Source: Lewinella sp. 4G2 (GTDB lineage Bacteria > Bacteroidota > Bacteroidia > Chitinophagales > Saprospiraceae). Taken from it: a stretch of DNA of 64,000 bases. Each line of letters begins with the position of its first letter. Within the stretch, counting starts at the first letter, position 1. This document shows, piece by piece, positions 38,187-63,219 of the stretch. Where the stretch lies: the NCBI RefSeq assembly GCF_001625015.1, contig NZ_LVWJ02000014.1:2108001-2172000 (forward strand), written 5' to 3'. Below the pieces are notes generated by a model that saw only the letters and a program-made list of their open reading frames with translations, ran no database searches and was not told the DNA's origin. A program made the translations under genes and the position numbers.

Positions 38187-38219
38187 GCTCCGGTTGACAC
38201 GCGCTACCACGCTGCTACG

Positions 38220-46386: not shown

Positions 46387-47307
46387 ATGAATTTTCACAT
46401 CATTATCCCCACGCATAAGCGCAACGACCTGCTGAAGGTATTGTTGGACTCTCTGGTGGTGATTGATTTAATAAGCCTGGAGGGTAAGTTGACCGCTACG
46501 GTCGTGGAAAATGGTAGCCACGTTTCGGAAGAGCTAGTGGCCCGGTACGAAGGTGCTCCCTTCCCCATTAAGTACCGCCACCTGGAGCAGGGGAATAAAA
46601 GCGCGGCGCTCAATGCAGTGATCAAAGAAACGGCCTCGGATACTTTCTTGCTCTTCTTTGATGACGACGTTATCCTGGACGCTGGCATCATTACAGCGTA
46701 CGTGAAAGCCATCGCTACCTTTGGCGATCAGTATTTCTACGGTGGCCCGGTACGTGGCTATTACGACGAAGAGCCTGCTCCGTACTTACTAAAGTACTTA
46801 CCGGAGAGCGCTGGTAGCTTCGTACTTCCTCAATGGACGGAGCCTACTGACATCAGTAAGGACCGTAGTACCATGCTGGGTGCTAACTGGGGGATATTGG
46901 CCAGCGTACTGCTGACCAACGGCACTTTTGACCCGCAAGTCGGTCCAGGATCCAAGAAAGGTATTCGTGGGCAGGAAACGGACGCTATGCGCCGGCTGGT
47001 AAGTGCCGGAATAAAGCCGGTGTACGTCCCTGGAGCGGAGGTGCAGCACTACGTGCCCGCAAAGGTGTTGACGGAAGAATGGCTGGTGGATCGTTTTACG
47101 AAAACGTTTACTTATGCGGGTAGCCGGCGTAAGACGCCGACGATTATTGGAAGAGAACTGGCGCGGCTGGTACTTAGCTACGGCGCAAAAATCAAGGGTG
47201 AGATAACTGGCCAGCCCGAAGATGTCTTAAAAGCCAAAATTACCGCCGCCAAGAGTAGGGGATTTTTTGCGGGGCTTGGCCATTCCTGGCTAACGAAGGG
47301 CCTCTAG
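46387..47307 (+). CDS. Glycosyltransferase family 2
   Basis: A 306-residue GT-A-type glycosyltransferase starting NFHIIIPTHKRNDLLKVLLD. It has GNKSAALNAVIKET and the metal-binding DDD in LLFFDDDVILDAG, then GANWGILASVLL and RGQETDAMRRLVSAG, where an E-x-D acts in acceptor or base function. No membrane segment is visible, so it should be a peripheral enzyme adding one sugar to the repeat unit. It is the last gene before the A+T-rich part of the locus. Confidence 0.88.
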   Translation: MNFHIIIPTHKRNDLLKVLLDSLVVIDLISLEGKLTATVVENGSHVSEELVARYEGAPFPIKYRHLEQGNKSAALNAVIKETASDTFLLFFDDDVILDAGIITAYVKAIATFGDQYFYGGPVRGYYDEEPAPYLLKYLPESAGSFVLPQWTEPTDISKDRSTMLGANWGILASVLLTNGTFDPQVGPGSKKGIRGQETDAMRRLVSAGIKPVYVPGAEVQHYVPAKVLTEEWLVDRFTKTFTYAGSRRKTPTIIGRELARLVLSYGAKIKGEITGQPEDVLKAKITAAKSRGFFAGLGHSWLTKGL

Positions 47308-48636: not shown

Positions 48637-49431
48637 ATGAATATTGGTTTCTTGATCACCGCGCGGTTGAAGTCCTCCAGACTACCGCTCAAGCTGTTGA
48701 AAGATTTGGGAGGGCGCTCAGTCGTAGAGCGGGTCATCGATCGTACTAAGCAGGTTAGTTACGTCAACGATATTGTACTCTGTACTTCGACTAATCCACA
48801 GGATCGACCTTTGGCAGATCTCGCCCTGAAAAATAATATCTACTACTTTCTGGGTAGTGAAGAAGACGTACTGAAGCGATTAGCGGATGCTGCCGACTTC
48901 TTTGAGATGGACTGCTTCGTAAACATCACGGGGGAAAACCCACTGTTTTCTATTGAATATGCAAATCTGATTGCAGACAGCTTGAGGACGGGGCACTATG
49001 ACTTTGTATACCTAGAGGGATTGCCTATTGGATGCGCGTGCTACGGCTTAAACACGAAGGCCTTGAAGGTTATTTGCGAGGTCAAAAAGGAAGTAGATAC
49101 TGAAATATGGGGGATGCTGATCAACCGGCCGGACATATTCAGGGTGAAAAAGATCGAAGTATCGCCCGCTTTTAACATCGGTGATGTCAGAATTACCACG
49201 GATTACATCGAGGACTATCAGATGATCCAGAAGATATACAGCAACTTTCCAAATGCGCACACGCCTTCGTATTTCGAAGTCGCGGAGTTGTTGAAACGGA
49301 AGCCTGAAATTTTGAAGATCAACGCCATGAGGAAACAGCTCGCGTTAGATCCACAGGTAATAAAAAGAATTGATACATTCTATACCGAACATAAAGACAT
49401 GGTTTTAGAAATGTTGAGCAAAAGAAACTAA
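48637..49431 (+). CDS. Cytidylyltransferase-like protein (SpsF/NeuA-related)
   Basis: A 264-residue nucleotidyltransferase-fold protein starting MNIGFLITARLKSSRLPLKL, the R-x-x-S-x-R-L-P signature of CMP-sugar synthetases and SpsF proteins. VVERVIDRTKQ, IVLCTSTNPQDRPLADLA and FVNITGENPLFS (metal-binding region; D-x-PL is more usual, here E-NPL) follow. By position it probably activates the product of the NeuB-like enzyme to its CMP form. The C-terminal part is of the SpsF kind. The ATG follows the preceding TAG without a gap, so the two are tightly coupled. Confidence 0.85.
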   Translation: MNIGFLITARLKSSRLPLKLLKDLGGRSVVERVIDRTKQVSYVNDIVLCTSTNPQDRPLADLALKNNIYYFLGSEEDVLKRLADAADFFEMDCFVNITGENPLFSIEYANLIADSLRTGHYDFVYLEGLPIGCACYGLNTKALKVICEVKKEVDTEIWGMLINRPDIFRVKKIEVSPAFNIGDVRITTDYIEDYQMIQKIYSNFPNAHTPSYFEVAELLKRKPEILKINAMRKQLALDPQVIKRIDTFYTEHKDMVLEMLSKRN

Positions 49432-49433
49432 GT

Positions 49434-49892
49434 ATGATCATCGATAAAGTAGAAAATTTGGACCGATATGCTCTCTCAGAGGACTTGAGGGCAGCCATTA
49501 AGGAAAATGCCAAGACTGATACGGAGCATTTTGAAAGGGGAAAATTTGATATAGCGAGCGACGACAGTTTGTTCGGAATCCGGCTGGAATATGACACTAA
49601 GGATGAAGGCGAGTGTTTGTGGGAAGCACACCGTAAATATGTTGATGTGCACCTCATCCTAGAAGGAGAAGAAATGGTATTCGTAAATGACATTCAGAGT
49701 ATGAAGAGTTCGAAGCCTTACGTGAATGCCGATGACTATGAACTCTTTGTAGGAGAGGCGAAGGATGAGGTTGTCCTTAGGAAAGGAATGTTTTTGGTCT
49801 TATATCCTAATGAGGTGCACAAGACCAGCGTACATCACGCAAAACCAAATCAGGTGTCCAAAGTGGTACTCAAAATGCTTGCGTTGCGGTAG
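49434..49892 (+). CDS. YhcH/YjgK/YiaL family protein
   Basis: A 152-residue small cupin-like protein. WEAHRKYVDVHLILEGEEMV is the family hallmark, with His and Glu as probable metal ligands, and MFLVLYPNEVHKTSVHH gives further His residues. The family includes YhcH of the E. coli sialate catabolic operon and the beta subunit of evolved beta-galactosidase; a role in handling sugar anomers or related intermediates has been proposed. Here it lies two bases after the cytidylyltransferase-like gene, in a biosynthetic setting, so it may act on the NeuB-like enzyme's substrate or product. Confidence 0.88.
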   Translation: MIIDKVENLDRYALSEDLRAAIKENAKTDTEHFERGKFDIASDDSLFGIRLEYDTKDEGECLWEAHRKYVDVHLILEGEEMVFVNDIQSMKSSKPYVNADDYELFVGEAKDEVVLRKGMFLVLYPNEVHKTSVHHAKPNQVSKVVLKMLALR

Positions 49893-50000
49893 CAGGATTT
49901 TAAGACTACAGAAATGAGTGCACTTTAAGACAACCTACGAGGTTAGTCATAACACATCCTAATTCCAACTACTACTACGCAAGTTCACAAACTACACTCT

Positions 50001-50912
50001 ATGGCAAAGGGAATACTATTTCATCACTTTCATGACGCAGCAGATAAGCAAGCAGTTGTTCTGCCAGGATCGATTGAGAAGAAAGATTTCAAGCGGATAA
50101 TAGAGCGAGTTAAGGAAAAATACTATCTGAATGATGCAGATGAATGGATCGAAAAAGCGAGACATGGCGGATTGACGAACAAAGACGTATGCCTGACCTT
50201 TGATGACGGAATAAGGAGTCAGTACAGTATTGCTAAGGAGGTGATGGATGAATACGGGGTAAAAGCATTCTTTTTCATCTATTCCGGCATGTACGTTGGA
50301 GAAACACCAAGATTGGAAATATACAGGCTCTTTAGATCCAAGTTTTTTTCCAGCTTTGATGACTTCCTTGAGCATTTTCTAGCGAAAATGAAGCAAGAGC
50401 AAGACGTGGAAAAGATCCTGGAGCAGTTTCCTGAAGAGTACTTGTCTCAATTCTCCTTCTATTCTAGAAATGAAAGAAGATTCAGGTACATTCGGGATTT
50501 AATACTTTCACGTAGTGCCTACAACCGTATCATGGATGCGTTGATAGCTGAGTTTACTACCATCGAAAAACTGTCTGAAAGTGTTTGGATAATGAAGGAT
50601 CAACTGGTGGAACTAAGTAACGATGGACATACTATCGGTCTTCACTCCGTTTCACATCCAACGAAGATGGAAATACTGGATGACTCAACTCAGTACGAGG
50701 AGTACTTTAATAACAAGAACCACTTGGAGGCAATAACGGGTAAAGAAGTCGTTTCGATTGCTTACCCGTCCGGCTCATACAATAAGTACACGCTAAAATT
50801 GATGAATGAATTAGGAATTCAGGTTGGTTTCCGAGCTGATGAAAGGGCTGGAGATCAGTTCTTGTTAGAGACTCCGAGAATAGATGGAATTGATGCGCTT
50901 AGTCGGCTTTAG
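50001..50912 (+). CDS. Polysaccharide deacetylase (NodB homology)
   Basis: A 303-residue protein with the NodB core. CLTFDDGIRSQYSIA carries the Asp pair of motif 1, GLHSVSHPTKMEIL the H-S-x-x-H of motif 2, and VSIAYPSGSYNKYTL the later motif. Between motifs 1 and 2 there is a long insertion of about 100 charged residues. Members remove acetyl groups from N-acetylhexosamines. No signal peptide is visible, so it probably acts on a cytoplasmic or lipid-linked intermediate. It belongs to the A+T-rich part of the locus. Confidence 0.85.
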   Translation: MAKGILFHHFHDAADKQAVVLPGSIEKKDFKRIIERVKEKYYLNDADEWIEKARHGGLTNKDVCLTFDDGIRSQYSIAKEVMDEYGVKAFFFIYSGMYVGETPRLEIYRLFRSKFFSSFDDFLEHFLAKMKQEQDVEKILEQFPEEYLSQFSFYSRNERRFRYIRDLILSRSAYNRIMDALIAEFTTIEKLSESVWIMKDQLVELSNDGHTIGLHSVSHPTKMEILDDSTQYEEYFNNKNHLEAITGKEVVSIAYPSGSYNKYTLKLMNELGIQVGFRADERAGDQFLLETPRIDGIDALSRL

Positions 50913-51163
50913 AATACCCATCCTGCTGATAGATAGAATGTAACGTCAGAATCTTGGAAGGTTTACGAACATTAAATTATCCGTTAAGGCCTTGAGTAAG
51001 AGCCCTGTGATTTTGGGTGGACGCCTATCACTTGATTGATATTGGGCCTTAAATTAATCCTTAAAAAGTATAGCTTGAAGGGCAAGCCTGATAGTAAAAA
51101 GACCTTTTGGTTGTACTGCAAATGGGGCATCACGAAATGGCCGAAAGCTTAGAAGATAATGCT

Positions 51164-52096
51164 ATGAATAATATTTTCATCACAGGACTATGGAGAAGCG
51201 GTACCTCACTCTTACTACGATTGTTTGACTCTCATCCCCAGATTTTTGCAATGCCAATTGAGACTGGGATCGTTGGTGTACTCGAGAAAGATCCTGAATA
51301 TTTGGATAAGCTGAAGAATTGTCAGAGTAGTTACCAACTTCTAAGTTTGATCTCCAGCAATCCTGTATTTAGATTTCAGGACATCATCCGGGGGGCAATT
51401 AGTGGGCTGTCTTTTTCCAGGACAAAGGATCACTATCCTTTTGACTTTGATTTTGAGCTATTTGCTACTTCATTTTTTGAGGTTTTAAGGGACCATTCGT
51501 CTCTCAATAAGATTGTTTACGGGTACTACGAGTCTATACAAAAAGCCTGGATCAGTCAAAAAGGAGCCGATGAGAAATCGACTTTTGCTATACAAAGGGC
51601 GCACAGAATCGAGAAATACCCGGGTGAGGATAGTGTTCGATTTTTGATGCAAAACGTTGACAGTATGGTCGTGTTTGAACTGATTCGTGACCCGGTCTTT
51701 CAAATCGAGTCCGCTTTGAGGAACGATCCTGGTTTGACGCTTGCTCAGGCAGTTGTTTCCTGGGCCTACTCCTATGACGTGGTAAAACAAAGAAGCCGAG
51801 CATATCCTGAAATGTACAAGGCCATTCGGTACGAAGACCTAGTGGAAGATACGTCATCCACTATGAGGCAGCTGGTAGATTTAGTCGGTATCGAGTGGAA
51901 TGAAGTACTGACTAAGCCCACCTTCAGCAGTCATAATTGGAAGCCTAATTCGGATATTAACACCAATTCAGGAATAAGAAGGCGATACAAGACGAACCTG
52001 TCTACACAGCAATTAAAGTACATTCAAAACAGCCTGCATCATCATAGATCAGAACTGAGCTATCCAACGATCAGTGACATAATTACGATTAATTAA
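51164..52096 (+). CDS. PAPS-dependent sulfotransferase (first of three)
   Basis: A protein of 310 residues from ATG 51164, read as MNNIFITGLWRSGTSLLLRL. The WRSGTS loop is the 5'-phosphosulfate-binding element and VVFELIRDPVFQIESALR is the 3'-phosphate-binding element of PAPS sulfotransferases. In-frame starts at 51122 and 51137 would add up to 14 residues outside the domain. It should transfer sulfate from PAPS to a sugar hydroxyl or amino group. Its stop overlaps the start of the SGNH hydrolase gene by one base. The gap 50913-51163 shows nothing else. Confidence 0.85.
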   Translation: MNNIFITGLWRSGTSLLLRLFDSHPQIFAMPIETGIVGVLEKDPEYLDKLKNCQSSYQLLSLISSNPVFRFQDIIRGAISGLSFSRTKDHYPFDFDFELFATSFFEVLRDHSSLNKIVYGYYESIQKAWISQKGADEKSTFAIQRAHRIEKYPGEDSVRFLMQNVDSMVVFELIRDPVFQIESALRNDPGLTLAQAVVSWAYSYDVVKQRSRAYPEMYKAIRYEDLVEDTSSTMRQLVDLVGIEWNEVLTKPTFSSHNWKPNSDINTNSGIRRRYKTNLSTQQLKYIQNSLHHHRSELSYPTISDIITIN

Positions 52097-52806
52097 TGGG
52101 CGCAAAGAAAAAGGTAATTGCTATCGGCGATTCACTGGCTTTGCCAGGCCACGGTAATGGTTACGAAGATACCTGGATTAAAAAAGTTAAGACTAGGTTT
52201 CCCGCTTGGGACTTCATAACCGTTTTTAGACGCTCCACCACGACTAATGTTCTGGTGCAATCAGGAGGAGGTGGAGACAACTCCAAAACTCCACGTGGAT
52301 CTGATTGTCTGGAATACTATCAACCGAATATAGTCATTACAAACCTAGGGATTGTCGATTGCGCACCAAGGTTGTTCTATTCAATAGAGAATAAGGTCGT
52401 GAAACACATGCCAGGAAGCCTTAGGAAGCCTTACATCAAGTTGATGAAGAGGATCAGAAGTAAGAGCCCAAAAAAAGCTTACGTTTCCATTGGTAAATTT
52501 GAGCACAACTGGACTACCTACTTGTCAAGGTGTGAGGCTATAAATGTTGAGAAAGTCATTATAATTGGAATTCCCCATCCCGACGAGAATATGGTCAAAC
52601 TAAATCCTGGTATAGTCAAAAGTGTGAAGGCATACAACGAGGTTTACGAAGGCTTGAGCCGTAAATTCAATTTTGTTTCTTTGATCTATCCTTTGGATTC
52701 AACCAGGTACGATTTTACCATTTTTGATGATGGGTATCACCCAAATCCTTCCGGCAACGAATTAGTATCGAATGAACTAGAGCTTATATTGGCATCCCAT
52801 GCCTAA
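52096..52806 (+). CDS. SGNH/GDSL-type hydrolase
   Basis: A 236-residue protein with block I VIAIGDSLALPG (catalytic Ser), a glycine-rich SGGGGDNSK, VITNLGIVDCAP, where block III usually has G-x-N-D, and block V DDGYHPNPSGNELV (Asp and His of the triad). SGNH enzymes are esterases or acetyltransferase-linked esterases; within polysaccharide loci they often add or remove acyl groups. There is no signal peptide. The ATG overlaps the TAA of the sulfotransferase gene, so both should be translated together. Confidence 0.8.
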   Translation: MGAKKKVIAIGDSLALPGHGNGYEDTWIKKVKTRFPAWDFITVFRRSTTTNVLVQSGGGGDNSKTPRGSDCLEYYQPNIVITNLGIVDCAPRLFYSIENKVVKHMPGSLRKPYIKLMKRIRSKSPKKAYVSIGKFEHNWTTYLSRCEAINVEKVIIIGIPHPDENMVKLNPGIVKSVKAYNEVYEGLSRKFNFVSLIYPLDSTRYDFTIFDDGYHPNPSGNELVSNELELILASHA

Positions 52807-52949
52807 AGCTGTACAGGCTCGAGGAGTGGGTCTATTCTCCAACACGTATTTGTCTATAATTATGTTCCGCATGGAGCGTTTGTAGTTTACAACCAAGGCA
52901 GCAGTTTGCTAAGCCGCTTTTTTGGAAGATGTCAAGCCAGGCTTGATCT

Positions 52950-54383
52950 ATGTCTTCTCAGTCCTCGATGCTAAAAAAGCTCTTTTCACATTCTTTAATC
53001 TACGCTATTGCTCCTCAGGTGGCTAGCATTGCGGGGATTCTGGCGCTGCCAGTCATAACCAAAGACTTAACAACAGTTGATTATGGAGTGTGGGGTGTGT
53101 TGATGGCTTACACCGGGGCATTACAGGCACTAGCAATTTTGGGGATGGGTGTTGTATTGTCAAATGCATTCTTCAAGATGCCCCGGCAGTACAAGTGGCT
53201 TTGGCGGCAGATCTATGGTATGTTGTTACTTTGGGCATTGCCTTACGGCCTGATCGTCGGCTGCTTACTCTACTTCGTAATGCCGGTGGAAGCTCAGGAA
53301 CATACCCTATTACTGATATTTCTCCTGCTTGCGCCAAACGTTCTCTTCGGACCCACTTCGCTTTTGGGGACGTACTACTACCAACTTAATCAGCGTCCTG
53401 TCCCTATTGTGGTGCGTACGACGTTATTTGGGTTGTTGACCGTAGGCTTAAGCGTATACACCATATCTCACCTGAAAATGGGGTACCTGGGTTGGGCCTG
53501 GACGAATTTCATCGTTACTGTTTTGATGAATGCTTCTTATTGGTATGTCATCAACGTCAAACTGGGATATCGACCCATCTTCAACTTTAAAAGGAGAACC
53601 ATACGAAGGGCACTTAATGTGTCTTTACCGACTATCCCACACACTTACGCTGCTTATCTGCTGGATAGTTCTGACCGTATCGTAATGGACCGACTACAAG
53701 TCAGTACTTCCAATCTGGGCATATATAATCTGGCGGCGAAGTTTGGTGGCTATTTCCGGGCACTCACGACGGGGGCGAATAAAGCCGTAGCTCCAATGAT
53801 GCTGAAAGCCTACAAGGAAGGCAAGGATGAAATTGCTCGGAACTTGATTGTTGCCCTGCAAATAGCTGTGCTTAGTGGTACTTTCATATTCGCGCTCTGG
53901 TCCCGGGAGATATTCGAGATATTGATCAAGAACGAAGAATTGAAAGAAGCTTACCCACTAGCAATCGTCATAGTGATGGCATATAACTATCGCCCTATGT
54001 ACACGGGAGCGTTAAATAAACTGTACTTTCTGGAAAAGACACAACTGTTGTGGCGGGTAAGCTTCATTGCGGGAGGGTTGAATGTCATACTCAACCTGAT
54101 TTTAATTCCAATATATGGGTTTGAAGTCGCAGCATACACTACTTTTGTCGCTTTCATGTACATGGGATTTGCCGGCCATTTCATCCCTAAAATTAAAGAA
54201 GTACATCGAGCTAACTTCTACCCCCTTTTTTGGTTAGGGGTCATTGTTTTAACTTCGATCATAGTTAGTTTCGCAGTTGAGCTAGAAATACTATATAAAT
54301 TTTGGATAAGCATTATCCTTCTGGGGGCAATGACCATGTTCCTTGTTTTTAATCGGAAAAGTCTTAACCATAAGTTCGGATGA
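52950..54383 (+). CDS. Wzx-type oligosaccharide flippase
   Basis: A 477-residue integral membrane protein with about 12-14 hydrophobic segments and the polysaccharide transporter pattern. It begins KLFSHSLIYAIAPQVASIAG, LALPVITKDLTTVDYGVWGV, and has SLPTIPHTYAAYLLDSSDRI in the middle. It should flip the undecaprenyl-linked repeat unit to the periplasmic face. Starts at 52950 and at the Met seven codons later are both possible. It overlaps the next gene by four bases. Confidence 0.88.
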   Translation: MSSQSSMLKKLFSHSLIYAIAPQVASIAGILALPVITKDLTTVDYGVWGVLMAYTGALQALAILGMGVVLSNAFFKMPRQYKWLWRQIYGMLLLWALPYGLIVGCLLYFVMPVEAQEHTLLLIFLLLAPNVLFGPTSLLGTYYYQLNQRPVPIVVRTTLFGLLTVGLSVYTISHLKMGYLGWAWTNFIVTVLMNASYWYVINVKLGYRPIFNFKRRTIRRALNVSLPTIPHTYAAYLLDSSDRIVMDRLQVSTSNLGIYNLAAKFGGYFRALTTGANKAVAPMMLKAYKEGKDEIARNLIVALQIAVLSGTFIFALWSREIFEILIKNEELKEAYPLAIVIVMAYNYRPMYTGALNKLYFLEKTQLLWRVSFIAGGLNVILNLILIPIYGFEVAAYTTFVAFMYMGFAGHFIPKIKEVHRANFYPLFWLGVIVLTSIIVSFAVELEILYKFWISIILLGAMTMFLVFNRKSLNHKFG

Positions 54384-55876
54384 GTACAGGGCTGGACAAG
54401 CAATCTTCAACGTTGAGGTTTGAGGCAATCGCCATGTTTCAACGACTGGAAAAAAACTATAGGGTATCCAGTTGGGAGCTTCACGGTCTGCATATTTGGC
54501 CCATTCTCAGGATCAAAATCGGACACGAAATCGCCCGAAGGGGGCTGGCTTCATCGGAACAAGTCGTCGACAGACCCCCGATGGAAAAGCTTCGGATGCT
54601 TACTTGGGGGCTACAAGAATATCTGGTTACCAAAAGGAACCTTGCAGCCACTGACGTTGCCTTCCTTGGTAGTTACTCCCACGAGGTAGCGATGGAGAAC
54701 AGACCCTACAATCGCTTCTTCGAGCCACTACTAGAAGAAGAGTTAACACAGCAACTTCACACGACGTATTTGCAGTACGGGTACAAAGAAGCAATGCGAT
54801 GCAACAAGGGTGCGTTTGATCAACTTTTCGGAACCATGTCTTTGCATGTTTTTGCCCAACTGGGACTAAAAGTGGGAAGGAAACGAATGGCAGAGGACTG
54901 GTGGAAGGATTTTCTATTGCTCCCAGACGTTGAGGTAGTTTTTGAGAAGCTTCAGGAACAGCTAGAACTCAGTAGTTCGACGCTGAAAAAGTACGTTTTA
55001 TCCAGTTTCAATATTCATTTGCGTAGTCAGCAGTACGGTAAATTATTTAAAGATCTGAAGCCTAAAGTTTTAGTTTGCCTGTACTTCTACGGTAATGACG
55101 GCCTGGCTGCTGTCTATGCTGCAAAACGTCAGGGAATTCTTACGGTAGACATGCAGCATGGCCCCTTGCGCAATGCTACGTATTCTGCGTGGTATAATGT
55201 TCCTTCAAAAGGATTCAATGTCTTCCCGGATATCTTTTGGACCTGGGACAAGAATAGCAGCCAAAATTTATCTGACTGGACCAGGGAAACTGCTCATGCT
55301 GTCGTAATCGGCGGGAATCCATGGGTCGAGTATTGGCGTGATTTACGTGGAGATGTGGCGGCACGGACTAAAAATTCAGGAGTAAGTAAGGTTCTTTACA
55401 CCATTCAGCCATTAACCACGATACAATTGTTCTTCGACGAGTTAATAGATTGCATACGATCGCGAGACGATTTAATGTGGGTGGTACGATTGCATCCACG
55501 GCAAGATGCGGCTCAAATACAGGAAATTGAAAAGCATCTGACCGCAAAAGGAGTGTGGGATAAGGTAGAGCTGGAATCCGCTCTCAGCAGCCCGCTTCCT
55601 TTGTCGCTTTCCTCCTCCTCAGTTCATCTTACAAATTATTCAGGGACGGCGATCGAAGCCTCCATTTTAGGGGTTAAGACGATTTTACTTCACGATAGAG
55701 GAGCTAAAGTCTATTCGGATCTGGTAAAGCAAAAGCAAGCTCTCGTATTAGATACAGGCAATTCGTTAAATGAACTTTTGGATGAGATATTAGATACCCC
55801 TACAGTTACTCATAACTCACACTCTATCTCTCCAAGTCAAGTTCTGTTAGACCTGGTAAAGCAAGCTCATGCGTAG
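54380..55876 (+). CDS. Putative GT-B-fold glycosyltransferase of capsule type
   Basis: A 498-residue soluble protein without a clear family name. The C-terminal half has TVDMQHGPLRNATYSAWYN, VVIGGNPWVEYW, VLYTIQPLTT, WVVRLHPRQDAAQIQEIEKH, and VHLTNYSGTAIEASILGVKT followed by ILLHDRGAKVYSDL. This order (HG, R-x-HP, S-x-x-EA) resembles capsule glycosyltransferases and glycerophosphotransferase-like proteins with a GT-B fold. The N-terminal half (about 1-240) is unlike anything I recognise. By position between Wzx and an acyltransferase it is probably a transferase for the repeat unit. Confidence 0.65.
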   Translation: MSTGLDKQSSTLRFEAIAMFQRLEKNYRVSSWELHGLHIWPILRIKIGHEIARRGLASSEQVVDRPPMEKLRMLTWGLQEYLVTKRNLAATDVAFLGSYSHEVAMENRPYNRFFEPLLEEELTQQLHTTYLQYGYKEAMRCNKGAFDQLFGTMSLHVFAQLGLKVGRKRMAEDWWKDFLLLPDVEVVFEKLQEQLELSSSTLKKYVLSSFNIHLRSQQYGKLFKDLKPKVLVCLYFYGNDGLAAVYAAKRQGILTVDMQHGPLRNATYSAWYNVPSKGFNVFPDIFWTWDKNSSQNLSDWTRETAHAVVIGGNPWVEYWRDLRGDVAARTKNSGVSKVLYTIQPLTTIQLFFDELIDCIRSRDDLMWVVRLHPRQDAAQIQEIEKHLTAKGVWDKVELESALSSPLPLSLSSSSVHLTNYSGTAIEASILGVKTILLHDRGAKVYSDLVKQKQALVLDTGNSLNELLDEILDTPTVTHNSHSISPSQVLLDLVKQAHA

Positions 55877-56564
55877 GAGAAAATCTATTTTTGGCTATTT
55901 GAAGTTCCAGTTTGAGAAAATCAATCAAATCTCCCTCCAGGGAAAAGCTGATGTCTCGAAGGCGGCTCTTCTCACGAATAGCAAATTCAGTGGTCAGGTA
56001 TCCCTAGGTGAGAATGTCAAGATTATCCACGGTGTTAGGATACTTGCAAAATCTCCAGTAAATATTGGACGCTACACTATCATTAATGGTCCCAATACAG
56101 ATATATCTGCAAGTGTTTTTCCGGTGAATATTGGACAGTTCTGCTCGATCGCTCGCAACGTATCTATCCAAGAGTACAACCATGCTTATAAGGGACTCAC
56201 GACATTCTTCATAAGTAGGCACGTATTCAATGATGCTAACGGGGTAGACAACTTTATACAATCCAAAGGTGCAGTTGAAATTAAGAATGACGTTTGGGTT
56301 GGAACCCAGTGCGTTATTCTCAGTGGTGTCACCATTGGAAATGGTGCCATCGTTGCAGCTAACAGCGTTGTCTCAAAAGATGTGCCGGACTATGCAATTG
56401 TCGCTGGTTCTCCCGCGCGAGTAATTGGGTACCGATTTGACGAGGATATAATTGATCGACTGTTAACTATTAAATGGTGGAACTGGACCAAAGAAAGGAT
56501 CCAATCCCACCGACAATTGTTTATGAAGCAAGATATTAGCTTACAAGACCTACAGGGCCTTTAA
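55869..56564 (+). CDS. Hexapeptide-repeat acyltransferase
   Basis: A 231-residue left-handed beta-helix protein of the xenobiotic/CatB acetyltransferase kind. Repeats of the [LIV]-G-x-x-x-x form run from about residue 45, and EVKNDVWVG-like sequence (EIKNDVWVGTQCVILSGV) and NGAIVAANSVVSKDVPDYAI are typical. The catalytic His is probably the one in SIQEYNHAYKGL. It should O- or N-acetylate a sugar of the repeat unit using acetyl-CoA. It overlaps the preceding gene by eight bases. Confidence 0.88.
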   Translation: MRRRKSIFGYLKFQFEKINQISLQGKADVSKAALLTNSKFSGQVSLGENVKIIHGVRILAKSPVNIGRYTIINGPNTDISASVFPVNIGQFCSIARNVSIQEYNHAYKGLTTFFISRHVFNDANGVDNFIQSKGAVEIKNDVWVGTQCVILSGVTIGNGAIVAANSVVSKDVPDYAIVAGSPARVIGYRFDEDIIDRLLTIKWWNWTKERIQSHRQLFMKQDISLQDLQGL

Positions 56565-56815
56565 TCAAAACACCAAAGACTGACCATAGAAGTTGCTATT
56601 TCGTACTTTCACCGATTCGGGCCTAGTTGTCAGAATCTTATATTATTGCGAATTTTGGATGCTTTGGCTAACCCAGACCTAGTACCCATTTACTTTGATG
56701 CATACACAGAAACCGAAAGCAAAACGCTTTTTACTGAACCTTGCATGCCTTTATAAGCAGCAGCCTTTGTAAGGCTAGGTGAAACTAGTAACTATTTAAA
56801 TTGTAATCCCAATCT

Positions 56816-57892
56816 ATGGAAAATAACCAAGCTTCGGATGGAATTATTACCTTTCGAGACCTCGTCCATGAGGTGGCAGCCATTGGTGGATACCTTCTAC
56901 GAAAATGGTACGTGGTTCTCTTATTCGTAGTGGGTATTGCGAGTGTAATGGTTTACATCGCGGTAACTACACCATCTCCCTACATTGCTCAACTTACTTT
57001 CTCTGTAGCTGGTGCTGAATCCGAGGGATTTGCTGGTGGTGGAGTTTTGGCTCAGCTAGGTTTGGGGGGCACTCAATCTTCGTCCGGTTTGAACTTGGCG
57101 CGCCTACAAAAGATCGCTAAATCGAGAATCATCGTTAAGAGGTTACTCTTTACACAAGTAAGCATAGACGGGAAAGAAGATTTTATTGCTAATCACCTCA
57201 TTAATCTGTACGACCTTAGGAATACCAGTTGGAAGGATAATCCACAGCTGTCTACCTTTCAAGGATTTTCGGAAGTTTTGATCGAAGAAGATGACCTGCA
57301 GTCCAATATTGTACTTAAAAGCCTCGCGGCCTTGCTTACCAGCGTCGCCGACGGTGAACCTATGATTCTCTTTGTTTTTGATGAATTCACTGGGATCCAC
57401 CAAATTGAGGTTAGAACTCCGAGTCAGGAGCTTTCAGCCAGAATGGCCGAAATTGTTTACAGCGTGCTGGATGATTTTTACGTCGAAAACTCGATTGCTA
57501 AACAACAGGGAATTGTCGACCGTCTCCAGGAACGAACAGATAGCATTCAAACCTTGGTGATGCAAACTGAAGCTACCCTGGCATCCAGTAGGGACCGCGG
57601 CAATGACTTGGTCCTGCGCCGAAGTGAAGTGGGTTTAAAGCAGCTTGAGCGCCAATTGCAGATCAACACCGCTCAATACTTGGAGATTATTAAAAACCTG
57701 GAACTTGCACGGTATACACTCAACAACATCACCCCTTCCTTTCAAATCATTGATCTACCCATCTTTCCGTTAGGAAGGGATCGAACTAGTCCCGTCTTAT
57801 TTGGTGCCATTGGAGCAATAATTGGGCTAATCATATCTGTGACCTGTCTGGTGGTCGCCAGAGCTGTCCGGAATGCAATGAAAACGAGCTAG
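56816..57892 (+). CDS. Wzz-type chain-length determinant protein
   Basis: A 358-residue inner membrane protein with one transmembrane helix near each end (WYVVLLFVVGIASVMVYIAV at about 27-46 and VLFGAIGAIIGLIISVTCLVV at about 325-345). Between them is a periplasmic part with coiled coil (about 215-300). This is the Wzz/polysaccharide co-polymerase layout. No kinase domain is attached. It sets chain length together with Wzy, whose candidate lies two genes downstream. The 251-base gap before it holds only weak small hairpins. Confidence 0.88.
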   Translation: MENNQASDGIITFRDLVHEVAAIGGYLLRKWYVVLLFVVGIASVMVYIAVTTPSPYIAQLTFSVAGAESEGFAGGGVLAQLGLGGTQSSSGLNLARLQKIAKSRIIVKRLLFTQVSIDGKEDFIANHLINLYDLRNTSWKDNPQLSTFQGFSEVLIEEDDLQSNIVLKSLAALLTSVADGEPMILFVFDEFTGIHQIEVRTPSQELSARMAEIVYSVLDDFYVENSIAKQQGIVDRLQERTDSIQTLVMQTEATLASSRDRGNDLVLRRSEVGLKQLERQLQINTAQYLEIIKNLELARYTLNNITPSFQIIDLPIFPLGRDRTSPVLFGAIGAIIGLIISVTCLVVARAVRNAMKTS

Positions 57893-58690
57893 ATGAAGGT
57901 CCTTGGTGTCGAATTGCCTCTGACTCTAGTTAGGCGGCTACGTGCGCTCAAACAGTTGCGGTACACGGTAATGGATTTAGCCATACGGGCTGGCCTCAAG
58001 CGGGGTGGTAAAGAACACTATCAACCTTTCGTGGTGGTTAGTCGGTCCCGCACTGGGTCTACGCTAATTGATTACTCGCTGAGACTGCATCCAGAAGTAG
58101 AGATGGATGGCGAGATCCTTAATCGTCTGCTAGGCCGTAGGGAGGAACAAGTACTTCTGAACTATTTCTCCAATAAGCCCAGTAATGTGAAGGCCGCTGG
58201 CTTTAAGATTTTCTACTATCATCCACTAGATGGTAGCCCTGAATTTGTGTTCTCTCTTTTGCACGGAATGAAGAACTGCAAGTACATTCACTTGACCAGG
58301 GAGAATAAACTGGCGGTTCACCTTTCCAGGTCCGTGGTGGAGCAAACACAGGCATGGTCAACGAAAAAGGATACGCCACGGGTGATAGCGCCGCTAATTA
58401 CTGTTGATCCAGAAGCCTGCCAAGAAGATTTTGAGCGGACTCAGGTCTGGGAGAATAAGTTTAGAGAGGCTTTTGCCGACCGAGAGGTTTACCACATCAC
58501 TTACGAAGATCTGGTACAGGAGCCCGTGGCAGCACTGACAAGAATACAACGTTTCCTTGGGGTGACGCCCCTTCAGATTGCTCCGCCTACCAAGAAGCAG
58601 CAGCGGGGCTCGATTGCCTCCCGCATTGCGAATTACTCAGAGCTACAGGATCATTTTGCTAATACACAATGGGCAAATCTCTTTAAGTAG
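57893..58690 (+). CDS. Stf0/NodH-like sulfotransferase (second of three)
   Basis: A 265-residue protein with the 5'-phosphosulfate loop VVVSRSRTGSTLIDYSLR, FKIFYYH, and YIHLTRENKLAVHLSRSVVE followed by QTQAWS. This resembles Stf0/NodH sulfotransferases, which sulfate the 6-position of trehalose or chitooligosaccharide sugars. NKFREAFADREVYHITYEDL and RIQRFLGV complete the domain. The start ATG follows the stop of the Wzz gene directly, and its own stop is followed directly by the next start. Sugar acceptor unknown. Confidence 0.85.
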   Translation: MKVLGVELPLTLVRRLRALKQLRYTVMDLAIRAGLKRGGKEHYQPFVVVSRSRTGSTLIDYSLRLHPEVEMDGEILNRLLGRREEQVLLNYFSNKPSNVKAAGFKIFYYHPLDGSPEFVFSLLHGMKNCKYIHLTRENKLAVHLSRSVVEQTQAWSTKKDTPRVIAPLITVDPEACQEDFERTQVWENKFREAFADREVYHITYEDLVQEPVAALTRIQRFLGVTPLQIAPPTKKQQRGSIASRIANYSELQDHFANTQWANLFK

Positions 58691-60064
58691 GTGGGAAATA
58701 AGCTCTTACAGCCCATTGATATTTTGGTAGCTCCACTGGTCCTACTGGTGATCATCTTATTGGGAGCACTGATTGTTCAGCGCGACAGGAAGGCACTCGG
58801 TGCAAAATTCGTCCAGTTTTTCTGGATTGCATTAGCCGCTCGGCTGCTGGCCAGTATAACCCGGATTCTCATCACGGACTACATCGTCCCCTCGTGGGGA
58901 GTGGATACGAAGACTTACGTGTTATTCGCGGGTAGGATGGTAGAGCACTTTTTCGTAGACCCCACTACGACGCTGGAAATTATTCTAACCAGTTACGATG
59001 ACTATTCAGTAGCAGCCCAGCAATTAACGGGTCACTATTTCTGGGAAAATCTACGTACGTCCATCATCATCAGGATCGGATTTTTCCTGTATGCAATAAC
59101 TGCAGGGAGTTACCTGGGAATTAGTTTTCTCTGCACGTTCCTGGCGTTCATTGGCTCCTGGTTACTCTACAAGACTTTCTATCAAGTCTATCCGCAGTAT
59201 GGGAAAATAATGGCGATCGCCTGCCTGTTTTTACCAACGGTCGTTTTTTACAGTACTAATCTTTTCAAGGATCCGTTTTGCATTCTTGGATTGGGGCTCG
59301 CCTGTTACTATAGCTTTCAGATCCATCGGTTCGGTAGTTCAATAGTCGGATGGTCAATGTTGCTGTTTGGAATGGTTATCCTGGGTTTGATCAAAGCTTA
59401 TATTCTCTTTGCCTTTCTTCTGGCTTTCGGTGTTTACTGGTTCGCGGCGCTCGATGTACCGCTAAGGGCTGGCATCATGAAGAAGTTCGCAAAGACGGCT
59501 ATCATTGTATTAGGTCTACTTTTATTGATTGGAGGAGTTGTCGGGTTCCTGAATCTTGGGTTGGACCGATACAATCCGGCTTCAATAGCCCTCCGTTTGG
59601 AATACTTAATCTCGGGTAACCGTGGAGATGAAACTGGGTCAGGTTACGCCTTGCCGGTGATTAGTCTTACTCCGGCGGGCTTCTTTTACTTCCTCTTCTC
59701 CGCTTTCAACGTCTCTCTGTTTAGGCCGTACCCGTGGGAGGTCAATGGCGTCGGTCCATTGATTCTTTTCTTCGAATCTTTCCCTACGCTAATTGTCACC
59801 ACCCTGCTTTTATTACGTACTGCGGTGATCAATTTCTTCGTACAGATTTTTCGGGATCCAGTACTACTATTCTGTTTCACCTTCGCGTTCATATTTCTTA
59901 CCATTACTGGTGCTTTTTCTCCTACATTTGGTGCCTTGTGTCGTTACAAGATCCCTGGATTCCCCCTCTTTGTAATTGTTTTAGGGGTAGTAGCCGCCCG
60001 CTATTATGAAGCCGAAAAAAGGCAGCAGTCAAATCGGGCGCGAATTAACACCAATCCCACATGA
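58691..60064 (+). CDS. Multipass membrane protein, probable Wzy polymerase
   Basis: A 457-residue protein starting with GTG directly after the preceding TAG. About ten to twelve hydrophobic segments are visible, with a larger loop between the early helices (RMVEHFFVDPTTTLEIILTS) and another with NRGDETGSGYALPVIS. No family motif is diagnostic. The topology and the place between Wzz, sulfotransferases and glycosyltransferases suggest the polymerase of a Wzx/Wzy system, and no other candidate is present in the locus. It overlaps the next gene by four bases. Confidence 0.6.
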   Translation: MGNKLLQPIDILVAPLVLLVIILLGALIVQRDRKALGAKFVQFFWIALAARLLASITRILITDYIVPSWGVDTKTYVLFAGRMVEHFFVDPTTTLEIILTSYDDYSVAAQQLTGHYFWENLRTSIIIRIGFFLYAITAGSYLGISFLCTFLAFIGSWLLYKTFYQVYPQYGKIMAIACLFLPTVVFYSTNLFKDPFCILGLGLACYYSFQIHRFGSSIVGWSMLLFGMVILGLIKAYILFAFLLAFGVYWFAALDVPLRAGIMKKFAKTAIIVLGLLLLIGGVVGFLNLGLDRYNPASIALRLEYLISGNRGDETGSGYALPVISLTPAGFFYFLFSAFNVSLFRPYPWEVNGVGPLILFFESFPTLIVTTLLLLRTAVINFFVQIFRDPVLLFCFTFAFIFLTITGAFSPTFGALCRYKIPGFPLFVIVLGVVAARYYEAEKRQQSNRARINTNPT

Positions 60065-60867
60065 TCTTCTTCGTAGGCCCCCAAAAAGCAGGGACCAGCT
60101 GGGTAGACGCCTACCTACGCTGGCACGGCGGCGTCGCGCTGCCGGAAGATTTGAAGGAAACCATGTTTTTCGACAAGTTCTACGATAACGGCCTGCCCTG
60201 GTATGTAAAATTTTACACAAATGCCGAGCCCGACCATACACGGGTTGAGGTAGCCCCCACCTATTTTGCCAGCGCGGAAGCCCGCCAACGTATCAAGGAA
60301 TATGCGCCGAAAAGCTCCATCGTGGTGTCCGTTCGCGACCCGGCGAAGCGCACTTTCTCCAGTTACCTTCATGAGCAGCGCTATGGCTTCATTCCCGCCC
60401 ACGTTGGTTTCCGGAAAGCCGTAGAAGAGCAAAATTTGGAGGACGCCTCCCGGTACTACGAACACACGACCGCCTGGCAACAAGCATTTGGTGCCGAAAG
60501 GATTCACTTCCTTCACCTAACGTCCATGAAAGATCTGGATGACTACGCCCGCCAGATTTGCACCATCGCGGGGATAGAATTTAAACCGGTACCGGATGAA
60601 TTACGTGGGAGAGTCAACGAAGCCAGCGTGCCCCGGAGCTACGGCGTAGCTTCTTTAGTCTCCAAACTCAACCAGCTCAGCCGCAAGTTGGGCTTGCTAA
60701 AATTCCGCAAATGGCTAATCGGTCTTGGTCTGAAAAAGCTCATATATAGCGGAGGAGGAGACGGCCCCGCAAGTCTTTCTGTAGCCGATCGAGAGTGGCT
60801 TATGGAGCATTATCTGGGCGACGATTGGGCGCGCTTTCAACAAGAATTCCCGCATGGCCAGTCTTAA
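60061..60867 (+). CDS. Sulfotransferase of the heparan-sulfate type (third of three)
   Basis: A 268-residue protein starting MIFFVGPQKAGTSWVDAYLR. The QKAGTSW loop binds the 5'-phosphosulfate, and SSIVVSVRDPAKRTFSSYLH is the 3'-phosphate site with the usual R-x-P-x-x-R-x-x-S-x-Y pattern seen in heparan sulfate sulfotransferases. It differs clearly from the two other sulfotransferases of the locus. Base composition rises to G+C-rich again from this gene. It overlaps the preceding gene by four and the following gene by 14 bases. Confidence 0.88.
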   Translation: MIFFVGPQKAGTSWVDAYLRWHGGVALPEDLKETMFFDKFYDNGLPWYVKFYTNAEPDHTRVEVAPTYFASAEARQRIKEYAPKSSIVVSVRDPAKRTFSSYLHEQRYGFIPAHVGFRKAVEEQNLEDASRYYEHTTAWQQAFGAERIHFLHLTSMKDLDDYARQICTIAGIEFKPVPDELRGRVNEASVPRSYGVASLVSKLNQLSRKLGLLKFRKWLIGLGLKKLIYSGGGDGPASLSVADREWLMEHYLGDDWARFQQEFPHGQS

Positions 60868-62029
60868 ACGCGTACTCTACCTTACGCCCGTTTTGCTGGA
60901 TACCATGCCAAACGCCGGTATCCGAAAAAAGGTGTTCGGGCAACTGCAAGCCCTGCGTGCGCTCGGCTACGAGGCCCAGTTGTTATACCTCCATGGCGAC
61001 GGCCTGCTGTTGACCAACGGCGACGGGGAGGAAAAACAATTCACTCTACCCAAACAACGGCCGCTATTTAGGCAGTGGGGCTACTACGACCACGTCGCAA
61101 AATTAATAGGCAATTTGGCACGCTTCAGCCATGTTTATTTACGCTACCACGTCCCCACGCCGGCCTACCTGCGCTTCCTCAAAATGGTCGCAGCGATTGA
61201 GCACAATCCCTTCGTTTACTGCGAGGTGCCTACGTATCCCTACACCCGCGAGTTCAACGGGCTGAAGGGTAGGGCGTACCACTTCCTGGATAGCTACTAC
61301 GCCAACAAAGCGGGTCAATACTACGATGAAGTCATTTCTTTTTATCCCGCGAAATCCATTTTTGGTCATACGCCCATCTTGCTGGAAAATGCGCTCGCTC
61401 GTAGTATTATTGATGAGGGCGCTGCCGCGGGTCCCAGGGAGATGGGCAAGCAAACCGGACCACTCCGCATGATCGGATTGGCCGCCAACCTGGAACGTTT
61501 CCACGGGTACGATCGGGTAATCCGCGGGATGAAGGAATACCTCGACCACAAAACGGAAGACCAACGCGACGTCCACCTGACCATTATCTCCCAGGGGGAT
61601 GTGTTCGAAGAACTCAAAGTCCTGGCCAATGAATTTGGCCTTACCGAAAAGACCACTTTCCTTAGCCCCAGGGTAGGGAAGGACTTGTACGACATCATCC
61701 AAACCATGGATCTCGGGATTGGCACCATCGCCCGCTACCGCGTAGAACTATTCACGGATAGTTCCCTGAAGACTCGTGAGTACTGCGCCTTTGGCGTACC
61801 CCAACTCCTGTCTGCGGAAGACCGCTCATTTCCGAAAGAGCTTACCTTCGTCCGCTACATCCCCAACGACGATTCCCCAGTACCCGTCGGAGATTTGGTG
61901 AGCTGGTTAGAAGACCTCCACCAACAACCCAATTGGCAGGTTGCCCTGTACCGCCACGCGGATGAGCAATTGAGTTGGAAGGGACAAATGAGTAAAGCGT
62001 TTGCCGTTAGCCACACCGTGCCAACTTGA
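60854..62029 (+). CDS. Glycosyltransferase, GT-B fold (family 4-like)
   Basis: A 391-residue protein. The N-terminal half begins RVLYLTPVLLDTMPNAGIRK and KVFGQLQALRALGYEAQLLY. The C-terminal half has RMIGLAANLERFHGYDRVIR, LSPRVGKDLYDIIQTMDLGI and DSSLKTREYCAFGVPQLLS, where K-x-R-E-Y-x-A-x-G-x-P is a variant of the GT4 donor-binding motif. It is likely to add one sugar to the repeat unit. Its gene overlaps the sulfotransferase gene by 14 bases. Confidence 0.82.
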   Translation: MASLKRVLYLTPVLLDTMPNAGIRKKVFGQLQALRALGYEAQLLYLHGDGLLLTNGDGEEKQFTLPKQRPLFRQWGYYDHVAKLIGNLARFSHVYLRYHVPTPAYLRFLKMVAAIEHNPFVYCEVPTYPYTREFNGLKGRAYHFLDSYYANKAGQYYDEVISFYPAKSIFGHTPILLENALARSIIDEGAAAGPREMGKQTGPLRMIGLAANLERFHGYDRVIRGMKEYLDHKTEDQRDVHLTIISQGDVFEELKVLANEFGLTEKTTFLSPRVGKDLYDIIQTMDLGIGTIARYRVELFTDSSLKTREYCAFGVPQLLSAEDRSFPKELTFVRYIPNDDSPVPVGDLVSWLEDLHQQPNWQVALYRHADEQLSWKGQMSKAFAVSHTVPT

Positions 62030-62088
62030 TGCATTATCGAATAACTATTTTGAGGGATTTGGACGGAGAGACGCAAAATTGATTATTG

Positions 62089-63219
62089 GTGAGTAGACGA
62101 ATCGTTCTAGTAGGTAATACATCCTGGAGCATGTACAATTTTCGCATGCCGCTATTCAAGCTCCTGCGTGAGCACGATTATGAGGTGCACATCGTCGCTC
62201 CAGCCGATGAATTTGGCCAGCGGTTGGAAGAAACCGGCTTTACTTTTCACCCAATTAAGATTGATAACAAGGGTAGTAATCCGCTGGCTGATCTCACTAC
62301 TTTGAGAGCTTTTCGACAGATCTACCGGCGAATTTTGCCGGATATAGTCGTCCATTACACGATTAAACCCAACATCTACGGAACCCTCGCCGCTGCTCGT
62401 TTGGGTATCCCGAGTATAGCCATTACTACGGGGCTTGGGCAGATTTTTAATGAACGAAGCGTCAGGTCTCAGGTGGCTAAAAGCCTCTACAAATACGCTT
62501 TTCGTAAACCTGAAAGAGTTCTTTTTTTGAATGGTGACGACCGGGATATCTTTGTAACCAATAAAATCGTACCTAACGGTAGTATTACGAAGGTCTTAAG
62601 GGGGGAAGGAATCGATACGGCAAATTTTGTTAGAAAATCACCACTACCTACTGGGCAAAGGTCCTTTGTTTTAATCGGAAGGCTACTTTGGCCGAAGGGG
62701 GTAGGAGAATTCGTGGCTGCTGCTCGAACACTCAAAGCAAAGTATCCGGACGTAGCGTTCAATATTTTGGGCTTCGTCAATCCGCAAGACCCTACGAGCG
62801 TAAGTCTTGAGGACCTTGACCAATGGGAAGTCGAAGGAATAATCAACTACCTGGGTTCGACCGACGATGTTGCCAGTTTCATCGAAAAAACGACCTGCGT
62901 CGTTCTTCCTTCGTATTACCGGGAAGGCGTCCCGAGGACGTTGATGGAGGCAGCTAGCATGGCAACACCCATAATAACCACTGACAACGTTGGGTGCCGG
63001 GAAGTAGTGGATCACGGAGAAAATGGGCTATTGGTGCCAGTCAAAGATGCCGAAGCCTTGGCCAATGCTATGGAGCGCATCATACTGGCAAATCCGGAAG
63101 ATTTGTTGGCCATGGGCCGGGCCGGCCGCAAGCTGATGGAGGATCAATTTTCTATTGAAACCATCAATGGCGAACTCATTGAATTATTCGACTCGATACT
63201 GACGAAATCCGGCAGATAA
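62089..63219 (+). CDS. Glycosyltransferase family 4 (PglA/CapM-like)
   Basis: A protein of 376 residues from GTG 62089; TTG 62086 directly before is also possible. It begins RRIVLVGNTSWSMYNFRMPL and has HYTIKPNIYGTLAAARLGIP and ITTGLGQIFNE in the N-terminal domain. GRLLWPKGVGEFVAAARTL and the donor-binding PSYYREGVPRTLMEAASMAT (E-x-x-x-x-x-x-x-E) follow in the C-terminal domain. The early motifs resemble those transferring N-acetylgalactosamine or similar sugars to undecaprenyl-diphosphate-linked acceptors. It is the last glycosyltransferase of the visible locus. Confidence 0.9.
   Translation: MSRRIVLVGNTSWSMYNFRMPLFKLLREHDYEVHIVAPADEFGQRLEETGFTFHPIKIDNKGSNPLADLTTLRAFRQIYRRILPDIVVHYTIKPNIYGTLAAARLGIPSIAITTGLGQIFNERSVRSQVAKSLYKYAFRKPERVLFLNGDDRDIFVTNKIVPNGSITKVLRGEGIDTANFVRKSPLPTGQRSFVLIGRLLWPKGVGEFVAAARTLKAKYPDVAFNILGFVNPQDPTSVSLEDLDQWEVEGIINYLGSTDDVASFIEKTTCVVLPSYYREGVPRTLMEAASMATPIITTDNVGCREVVDHGENGLLVPVKDAEALANAMERIILANPEDLLAMGRAGRKLMEDQFSIETINGELIELFDSILTKSGR

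Follow-up and report, generated by a model that had tools for sequence, protein, structure and literature searches.

Three unlike sulfotransferases and nonulosonate genes in one polysaccharide locus of Lewinella sp. 4G2: a predicted sulfated polymer

Among bacteria, sulfated polysaccharides have been ascribed almost exclusively to the cyanobacteria (PMC8205485). Synechan of Synechocystis sp. PCC 6803, described in the same paper, comes from a Wzx/Wzy-type exopolysaccharide cluster (xss) with two sulfotransferases of distinct subfamilies; its sugars-to-sulfate ratio is about 1:1:1:5:2, and the authors match the sulfate to the two enzymes. In Vibrio sp. KMM 8419 (PMC11641403), one 95-kb capsule locus holds second copies of cysC, cysN and cysD together with three sulfotransferase genes, and the sulfated product was studied by nuclear magnetic resonance. 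Pontiella sulfatireligans (PMC7356697) encodes three putative glycosaminoglycan sulfotransferases in its genome, and a sulfated glycosaminoglycan-like exopolysaccharide was measured. These and the other published systems below are cited from partial texts, to which statements about them refer. Here we describe a locus with similar traits in Lewinella sp. 4G2 (family Saprospiraceae, order Chitinophagales), in a window of 64,000 nucleotides (assembly GCF_001625015.1, contig NZ_LVWJ02000014.1, positions 2,108,001 to 2,172,000). It is a putative Wzx/Wzy-type array with three sulfotransferase genes, ST1, ST2 and ST3, and with genes for nonulosonic (sialic-like) acid.

We read ST1, ST2 and ST3 as cytoplasmic sulfotransferases that use 3'-phosphoadenosine 5'-phosphosulfate (PAPS) and would place sulfate on the lipid-linked repeat unit of a Wzx/Wzy polysaccharide also bearing a legionaminic-type acid, a reading to which we assign a probability of about 0.65. 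That nonulosonate and sulfate sit on one and the same polymer is less sure, at slightly better than even odds. The observations behind this reading are gene content, motifs, gene order, the presence of cysCDN, and the genes to which cysC is linked among relatives (UpxY, sulfotransferases and, in two of them, sulfotransferases plus NeuB); from them we infer the acceptors, the order of steps, a single polymer rather than two, and the kind of nonulosonate. In the proposed scheme, glycosyltransferases would assemble on a lipid carrier a repeat unit of xylose, an amino-uronate or uronate, a deoxyhexose and a legionaminic-type nonulosonate; ST1 to ST3 would add sulfate at different positions of this unit ahead of flipping by Wzx; Wzy and Wzz would polymerise the flipped units; and the SLBB protein would export the polymer. 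UpxY, encoded at the head of the array, would let RNA polymerase read through its length.

Three sulfotransferases of different kinds

The genes in question are as follows.

51164 to 52096, + strand: ST1, sulfotransferase of the Sulfotransfer_3 kind (PF13469 and motifs)
57893 to 58690, + strand: ST2, Stf0-like sulfotransferase (PF13469, PF09037 and PF00685 above cut-off)
60061 to 60867, + strand: ST3, heparan-sulfate-sulfotransferase-like (PF13469 and PF00685; 3-O-sulfotransferases in the PDB)

An earlier, sequence-only reading of the window had placed sulfotransferase genes at 51164, 57893 and 60061; all three are open reading frames at those coordinates, and all pass Pfam cut-offs for the PAPS-dependent sulfotransferase superfamily (PF13469/PF00685). 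The ATG of ST1 is internal to a longer open reading frame with a TTG start at 51107, which scored 60.9 bits for Sulfotransfer_3 (cut-off 27) and 23.7 for Sulfotransfer_1 (cut-off 22). ST2 scored 45.6 bits for Sulfotransfer_3, 32.0 for Stf0 (cut-off 22) and 27.0 for Sulfotransfer_1, and ST3 scored 46.0 for Sulfotransfer_3 and 39.5 for Sulfotransfer_1. As had also been claimed, each protein carries both PAPS-binding motifs, which we take to be the 5'-phosphosulfate loop and the 3'-phosphate motif: RSGTS and RDPVFQIES in ST1, RTGST and RENKLAVHLS in ST2 (whose second motif has one extra residue), and KAGTS and RDPAKRTFS in ST3. The assignment to different subgroups holds up as well, with pairwise global alignments of the three barely above shuffles (z 1.0 to 2.5). 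The proposed likeness of ST3 to heparan sulfate enzymes is borne out by PDB matches to heparan sulfate 3-O-sulfotransferases (best E-value 1.1e-10); 13 of the 14 distinct sequences matched at E 0.001 are heparan sulfate enzymes. The same search at E 0.001 returned no match for ST1 (51107) or ST2 (57893), and that ST2 resembles Stf0, as proposed, follows from its score above the PF09037 cut-off. Single-sequence AlphaFold2 models, built without alignments, were poor (predicted local distance difference test 39.7 for ST2 and 37.7 for ST1).

PAPS is cytosolic. The PAPS loop is reached at residue 11 in ST1, counted from the ATG at 51164, and at residue 9 in ST3, which in the predicted proteins leaves no space ahead of it for a signal peptide. 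Because of these two points, the most likely course is that the lipid-linked unit receives its sulfate before it is flipped, as Wzx/Wzy biology would also have it. Three enzymes suggest up to three sulfated positions; the two of synechan are paired with about two sulfates per unit (PMC8205485).

The enzymes might instead act on different acceptors (lipids, proteins, a small molecule), with one or none of them acting on the polymer. Their unlikeness to one another would fit this, as would Stf0 itself, which ST2 resembles and which, by its NCBIfam name, sulfates trehalose, and the presence of more sulfotransferase genes at three other places in the genome. We nevertheless consider it unlikely: ST2 and ST3 lie in a gapless run in the order Wzz, ST2, Wzy, ST3, glycosyltransferase (intergenic gaps of 0, 0, -4 and -14 bases), a congener keeps a sulfotransferase behind Wzy, and ST2 was rejected as a trehalose 2-sulfotransferase at 24.5 of the 400 bits that equivalog model NF047724 demands. 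The congener is G079, whose locus has UpxY at C41:158570 and encodes a dehydrogenase, an SLBB protein and a Wzz-like protein with 73% (248 codons seen), 52% and 33% identity to those of Lewinella sp. 4G2. Its Wzy-like gene overlaps a sulfotransferase gene by 4 bases, and one gene further lies a sulfotransferase 40% identical to ST3. This joint of Wzy and sulfotransferase is thus kept amid different sugar genes, with more sulfotransferases in the same array.

Separately, a second sulfotransferase-rich cluster lies at C14:2907001-2927000 of the Lewinella sp. 4G2 genome, with a 668-residue fusion of sulfotransferase and GT4 and four further sulfotransferase-like genes, of which one scored under its cut-off.

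PAPS supply and its gene neighbourhood across the family

The sequence-only reading noted that no PAPS-forming genes lie in the window, and indeed cysC, cysD and cysN are all missing from it. The genome search for these genes that it proposed found the triad near the array, as cysC-cysD-cysN at C14:2211435-2214474, separated from the window end by 39.4 kb and with each gene above an NCBIfam cut-off, so that a lack of PAPS supply is ruled out. CysD and CysN would form adenosine 5'-phosphosulfate (APS), which CysC would convert to PAPS; the genome has one APS kinase match.

A rival view would have cysCDN serve sulfate assimilation only, its supply of PAPS to the sulfotransferases being incidental. 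The distance of about 39 kb speaks for it, as does cysH, found on another contig among neighbours that, judged by eye, are siroheme- and sulfite-reductase-like. CysH, however, has CC and GCHHC motifs, paired cysteines that presumably mark APS-using reductases, and because of them CysC might be dispensable for assimilation; in NCBIfam, models for APS and for PAPS reductase both scored below cut-off and NF002537 (phosphoadenylyl-sulfate reductase) above it. Across the family, moreover, APS kinase tracks sulfotransferase presence, and cysC often lies close to UpxY. Assimilation as the sole role thus seems improbable.

These family patterns were counted as follows. Among 120 family genomes, that of Lewinella sp. 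4G2 included, PF13469 matched in 91 at E 0.001 (86 above cut-off), and 86 have a strong APS kinase. Both occur in 78, sulfotransferase only in 13, APS kinase only in 8 and neither in 21 (odds ratio 15.75, Fisher), in a table that takes PF13469 at E 0.001 as its only sulfotransferase test, scores seven genomes with a weak APS kinase as negative, and was counted by hand, the remaining rows being filled by subtraction. UpxY above cut-off lies no more than 10 kb from cysC in 30 of the 85 other APS-kinase genomes (0.29 expected), and in at least 7 of the 85, among the sulfotransferases listed, one is no more than 15 kb away from APS kinase (0.78 expected). With G000 left out, these expectations presume uniform placement and independent genomes; relatedness breaks the latter and makes p-values unsafe, but the ratios are nonetheless large.

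In the 87 stretches around cysC (50 of at least 15 kb and 37 shorter, absences from which carry little weight), we found the full triad in 64, UpxY in 30, a sulfotransferase in 13 and NeuB in 4. Three stretches have a cysH-like gene and one has sulfite reductase, whose rarity we count in favour of the main reading. For sulfotransferases, phmmer first gave 10 matches and our own hidden Markov model, built from 56 sulfotransferases, gave 23 (E <0.001); dropping 5 of 24 candidates that had no loop motif left 19 sulfotransferases in the 13 stretches. In two relatives, G158 and G344, one 20-kb stretch each holds the triad, three sulfotransferases that pass Pfam cut-offs, a NeuB-family gene and a cytidylyltransferase of PseF-like type (155 and 159 bits against a cut-off of 205.7), and G158 additionally has NeuC above cut-off. 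Their loci are better candidates for a sialylated, sulfated polymer than that of Lewinella sp. 4G2. They allow a broader and quite tentative proposal, whose chances we place a little short of even: in the family, UpxY and cysC-cysD-cysN may form one module with nonulosonate genes and a number of unlike sulfotransferases, whole in G158 and G344, for a single mucin-like polymer both sialylated (legionaminic-type) and multiply sulfated, with the Lewinella sp. 4G2 genome as a variant from which the triad has moved out.

Two observations on single cysCDN loci may be recorded here. The polysaccharide loci of G300 (L070:10103-10783) and G325 (L133) include a cysH-like gene, with no sulfite reductase in the stretch. 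At L071:15677-16993 a sulfatase-like lipoprotein (by eye) is encoded immediately before two sulfotransferase-like genes.

Nonulosonate genes and the rest of the array

Three genes at 47575-49892, unmentioned in the sequence-only reading, belong to nonulosonate families.

47575 to 48636, + strand: NeuB-like nonulosonate synthase, a second divergent copy (PF03102, 107 bits; PDB SiaC, E 6e-19)
48637 to 49431, + strand: CTP_transf_3 cytidylyltransferase, candidate CMP-nonulosonate synthetase (PF02348)
49434 to 49892, + strand: YhcH/YjgK/YiaL family protein (TIGR00022, 103.8 bits, cut-off 45.5)

The first scored 144.3 bits for N-acetylneuraminate synthase (TIGR03569), under the cut-off of 399.65, and the third scored 89 bits for the N-acetylneuraminate anomerase equivalog (cut-off 160). 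CTP_transf_3 has two matches genome-wide, and because the other is KdsB-like, the gene at 48637 is the best candidate for nonulosonate activation; a remote match below every NCBIfam equivalog cut-off shown, it is also the sole candidate for the CMP-legionaminate synthetase LegF. Directly past the window end follow genes for a LegC-type aminotransferase (453.5 bits, cut-off 420), a UDP-GlcNAc dehydratase (nearest PDB entry 3pvz; below NCBIfam cut-offs), a NeuD-type acetyltransferase (207.9, cut-off 160.8), a full NeuB-type synthase (488, cut-off 399.65), the hydrolysing epimerase NeuC (358, cut-off 235.9) and a CBS-nucleotidyltransferase. With four members of the legionaminic pathway above cut-off, this set looks like a near-complete legionaminic-type pathway. 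Both matches of the NeuB family (PF03102) in the genome lie in this array.

The array may, on the other hand, make two glycans, a sulfated Wzx/Wzy polymer from about 34-63 kb and, from about 66-78 kb, a second glycan of legionaminic type, such as one on proteins or lipopolysaccharide. A gap of 354 bases ahead of the LegC gene, together with further gaps, would suit such a division, as would G079, which has sulfotransferases and in which no NeuB match was found within the 38 kb retrieved. We regard it as doubtful, though the strongest of the alternatives, since a NeuB-like gene, the only cytidylyltransferase not of KdsB type and a YhcH-family gene sit within the sulfotransferase part, and since two relatives have NeuB together with three sulfotransferases and a PseF-like cytidylyltransferase.

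Several findings weigh against a sulfated polymer bearing a legionaminic-type acid, or against parts of that proposal. In the Lewinella sp. 4G2 genome cysCDN is located outside the array, and in G068 and G079, of the same genus, no polysaccharide marker was found in the 20 kb surrounding the triad. Among 298 genomes of the order (E 1e-5, own included), ST3 has matches in 70, against 6 for ST1 and 9 for ST2; within the genus ST3 is matched in 3 of 15 sampled genomes (its own, G079 and G206). Because relatives of ST1 and ST2 are few and ST3 is so restricted in the genus, the locus as a whole is not conserved. A strong APS kinase is missing from 13 of the 91 sulfotransferase-positive genomes and present in 8 of the 29 negative ones. 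Only 2 of the 87 stretches around cysC contain both sulfotransferase and NeuB, and the model used to find sulfotransferases there was trained in part on proteins from 6 of the 13 positive stretches, chosen beforehand for a sulfotransferase near APS kinase. The legionaminic label leans on LegC and on the general outline of the pathway, the NeuB and NeuC models passed being named for N-acetylneuraminate. Finally, because the GC (guanine plus cytosine) content of genes differs from that of the region (41-46% from 47575 to 57892, 49% in ST2 and 54% in ST3, against 53%), the array is a mosaic whose parts may serve different polymers; from the same figures, the sulfotransferases probably reached the locus by separate routes. 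A scan of genome contigs with ST3 (36 stretches) gave no relative, and one with the SLBB protein gave two distant loci, titled Porphyromonadaceae and Alistipes, at 30% and 26%.

All non-overlapping open reading frames of at least 100 codons from UpxY (33990) to 77688 lie on the + strand, the end of the array falling past the window. Within this one cluster Wzx, the glycosyltransferases and the sulfotransferases were assigned by Pfam, and Wzy and Wzz by position, hydropathy and likeness to the congener. The remaining genes in the window are these.

33990 to 34628, + strand: UpxY-family transcription antiterminator, array head (NF033644, 107.3 bits, cut-off 100)
34716 to 35753, + strand: NDP-sugar epimerase/dehydratase, GalE/TviC-like (Pfam Epimerase; below NCBIfam cut-offs)
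35704 to 37125, + strand: glycosyltransferase, GT4-like (Pfam Glyco_trans_4_4)
37122 to 38186, + strand: RmlB, dTDP-glucose 4,6-dehydratase (TIGR01181, 469.7 bits, cut-off 365.1)
38647 to 39519, + strand: RmlA, glucose-1-phosphate thymidylyltransferase (TIGR01207, 479.6 bits, cut-off 360.65)
39423 to 41312, + strand: ABC transporter, HepA/MsbA-like (Pfam ABC_tran, ABC_membrane; NCBIfam below cut-off)
41321 to 42259, + strand: UDP-glucuronate decarboxylase (UDP-xylose synthase; PDB human UXS1, E about 2e-105)
42322 to 43662, + strand: nucleotide-sugar 6-dehydrogenase, N-acetylhexosamine (TviB/Cap5O) type (NCBIfam and PDB likeness)
43705 to 46362, + strand: SLBB-domain polysaccharide export protein (Pfam Poly_export, SLBB)
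46387 to 47307, + strand: glycosyltransferase family 2 (Pfam Glycos_transf_2)
50001 to 50912, + strand: polysaccharide deacetylase (PF01522)
52096 to 52806, + strand: GDSL-like hydrolase (PF13472, 32.3 bits, slightly under cut-off 32.9)
52950 to 54383, + strand: Wzx-type flippase (PF01943, Polysacc_synt)
54380 to 55876, + strand: surface-carbohydrate glycosyltransferase-like (NF046086/TIGR04396 weak, below cut-off)
55869 to 56564, + strand: hexapeptide acyltransferase (PF00132)
56816 to 57892, + strand: putative Wzz-like co-polymerase (no Pfam family; 33% identity to a congener protein in the same setting)
58691 to 60064, + strand: putative Wzy-like polymerase, about 12 hydrophobic segments (no Pfam family; position, hydropathy, congener likeness z 5.5)
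60854 to 62029, + strand: glycosyltransferase-like (PF13692 weak, below cut-off)
62086 to 63219, + strand: glycosyltransferase GT4 (PF00534)

The sequence-only reading had named uronate, xylose and deoxyhexose genes. Xylose (41321) is upheld, and RmlA and RmlB, of the deoxyhexose genes, exceed their cut-offs; uronate is doubtful, the product of 42322 having been rejected as a plain UDP-glucose dehydrogenase since it is nearer to N-acetylhexosamine dehydrogenases (TviB model 482 bits, under cut-off 592; PDB neighbours UDP-N-acetylmannosamine dehydrogenase and Cap5O). RmlC and RmlD were absent among the scanned array genes, the rest of the genome not having been searched for these two. The multiply sulfated acidic exopolysaccharide proposed earlier remains the best reading overall, with the nonulosonic acid genes as a source of its acidity. 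Promoter-like sites number about as many as in shuffled sequence, and terminator-like sites exceed the shuffled mean (31 against 20.4, standard deviation 4.5; 20 against 13.3, standard deviation 3.5); many of the sites lie inside genes, so they do not mark out operon borders.

Other features include a 159-base element present twice between rmlB and rmlA (38200-38358 and 38448-38606, 92% identity), with a 30-base motif occurring three times. Upstream of the array lie a giant open reading frame of 9675 codons, running from the adjoining upstream stretch to window position 11220, and one of 2190 codons at 11567-18139, both repeat- and adhesin-like by eye.

Comparison with described systems

Synechan differs from the locus described here in its cyanobacterial plasmid, its sugars (rhamnose, mannose, galactose and glucose only) and its two rather than three sulfotransferases; the text of PMC8205485 available to us does not mention UpxY, cysCDN or nonulosonate, all represented in the Lewinella sp. 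4G2 genome. The Vibrio capsule is exported by an ABC transporter and contains glucose and rhamnose, one of its three sulfotransferases is assigned to the O-antigen, and nonulosonate goes without mention in the excerpt (PMC11641403). In the sulfated capsule locus of Cobetia marina KMM 1449 (PMC11766843), a cysN/cysC fusion, together with cysD and cysQ, lies next to genes for capsule export and sulfotransferases, but export is again by an ABC transporter (kps), the host is gammaproteobacterial, and the partial text is silent on nonulosonate. The wps-1 cluster of Actinoplanes missouriensis (PMC13390465) resembles our array in its Wzx/Wzy/Wzz-like genes and its two sulfotransferases of different families, one heparan-sulfate-like, both required for normal sporangia; it belongs to an actinomycete, sulfation is posed there as a possibility, and the portion seen names no nonulosonate. 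In Pontiella sulfatireligans, a member of the Verrucomicrobiota, the cluster holds only one of the three sulfotransferases (PMC7356697). In granular sludge, legionaminic/pseudaminic-type acids and sulfated polymers were measured in the same extracellular polymeric substances, and synthases of nonulosonic acids and sulfotransferases were sought by BLASTp in related genomes, but no locus was assigned, and the authors call poorly known sulfation genes a bottleneck (PMC10483923).

The sequence-only reading called such polymers rarely described from bacteria, which is only partly true, with sulfated polymers or clusters in synechan, Vibrio, Cobetia, Pontiella and Actinoplanes. Clusters with several sulfotransferases (synechan, Vibrio, Actinoplanes) and PAPS genes in capsule loci (Vibrio, Cobetia) are thus already known, as far as these partial texts go. 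What appears new, judging by gene content, is that sulfotransferases share a single locus with nonulosonate genes and that UpxY is linked with cysCDN; in the open-licence PMC literature, subscription papers being outside the search, neither a legionaminic-type pathway with sulfotransferases in one defined locus nor that linkage was found in the text available. A survey of 83 metagenome-assembled genomes (MAGs) from mats, with largely eukaryotic queries, reported a sulfotransferase in no Bacteroidetes MAG (PMC9723792), and in the part available of a Shark Bay study (PMC12555021) sulfotransferase genes are named in cyanobacterial MAGs only. The 91 of 120 family genomes with Sulfotransfer_3, and the PAPS genes near UpxY in 30 of 85, contrast with this cyanobacterial picture. 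ST1 to ST3 offer unlike enzymes for making sulfated glycans, and the loci of Lewinella sp. 4G2, G158 and G344 are defined gene sets with which sulfation genes of sialylated, sulfated exopolysaccharides can be tested. If the module proposed above is real, loci of its kind could provide the genes behind the sialylated, sulfated polymers of granular sludge, where the sulfation genes are unassigned (PMC10483923).

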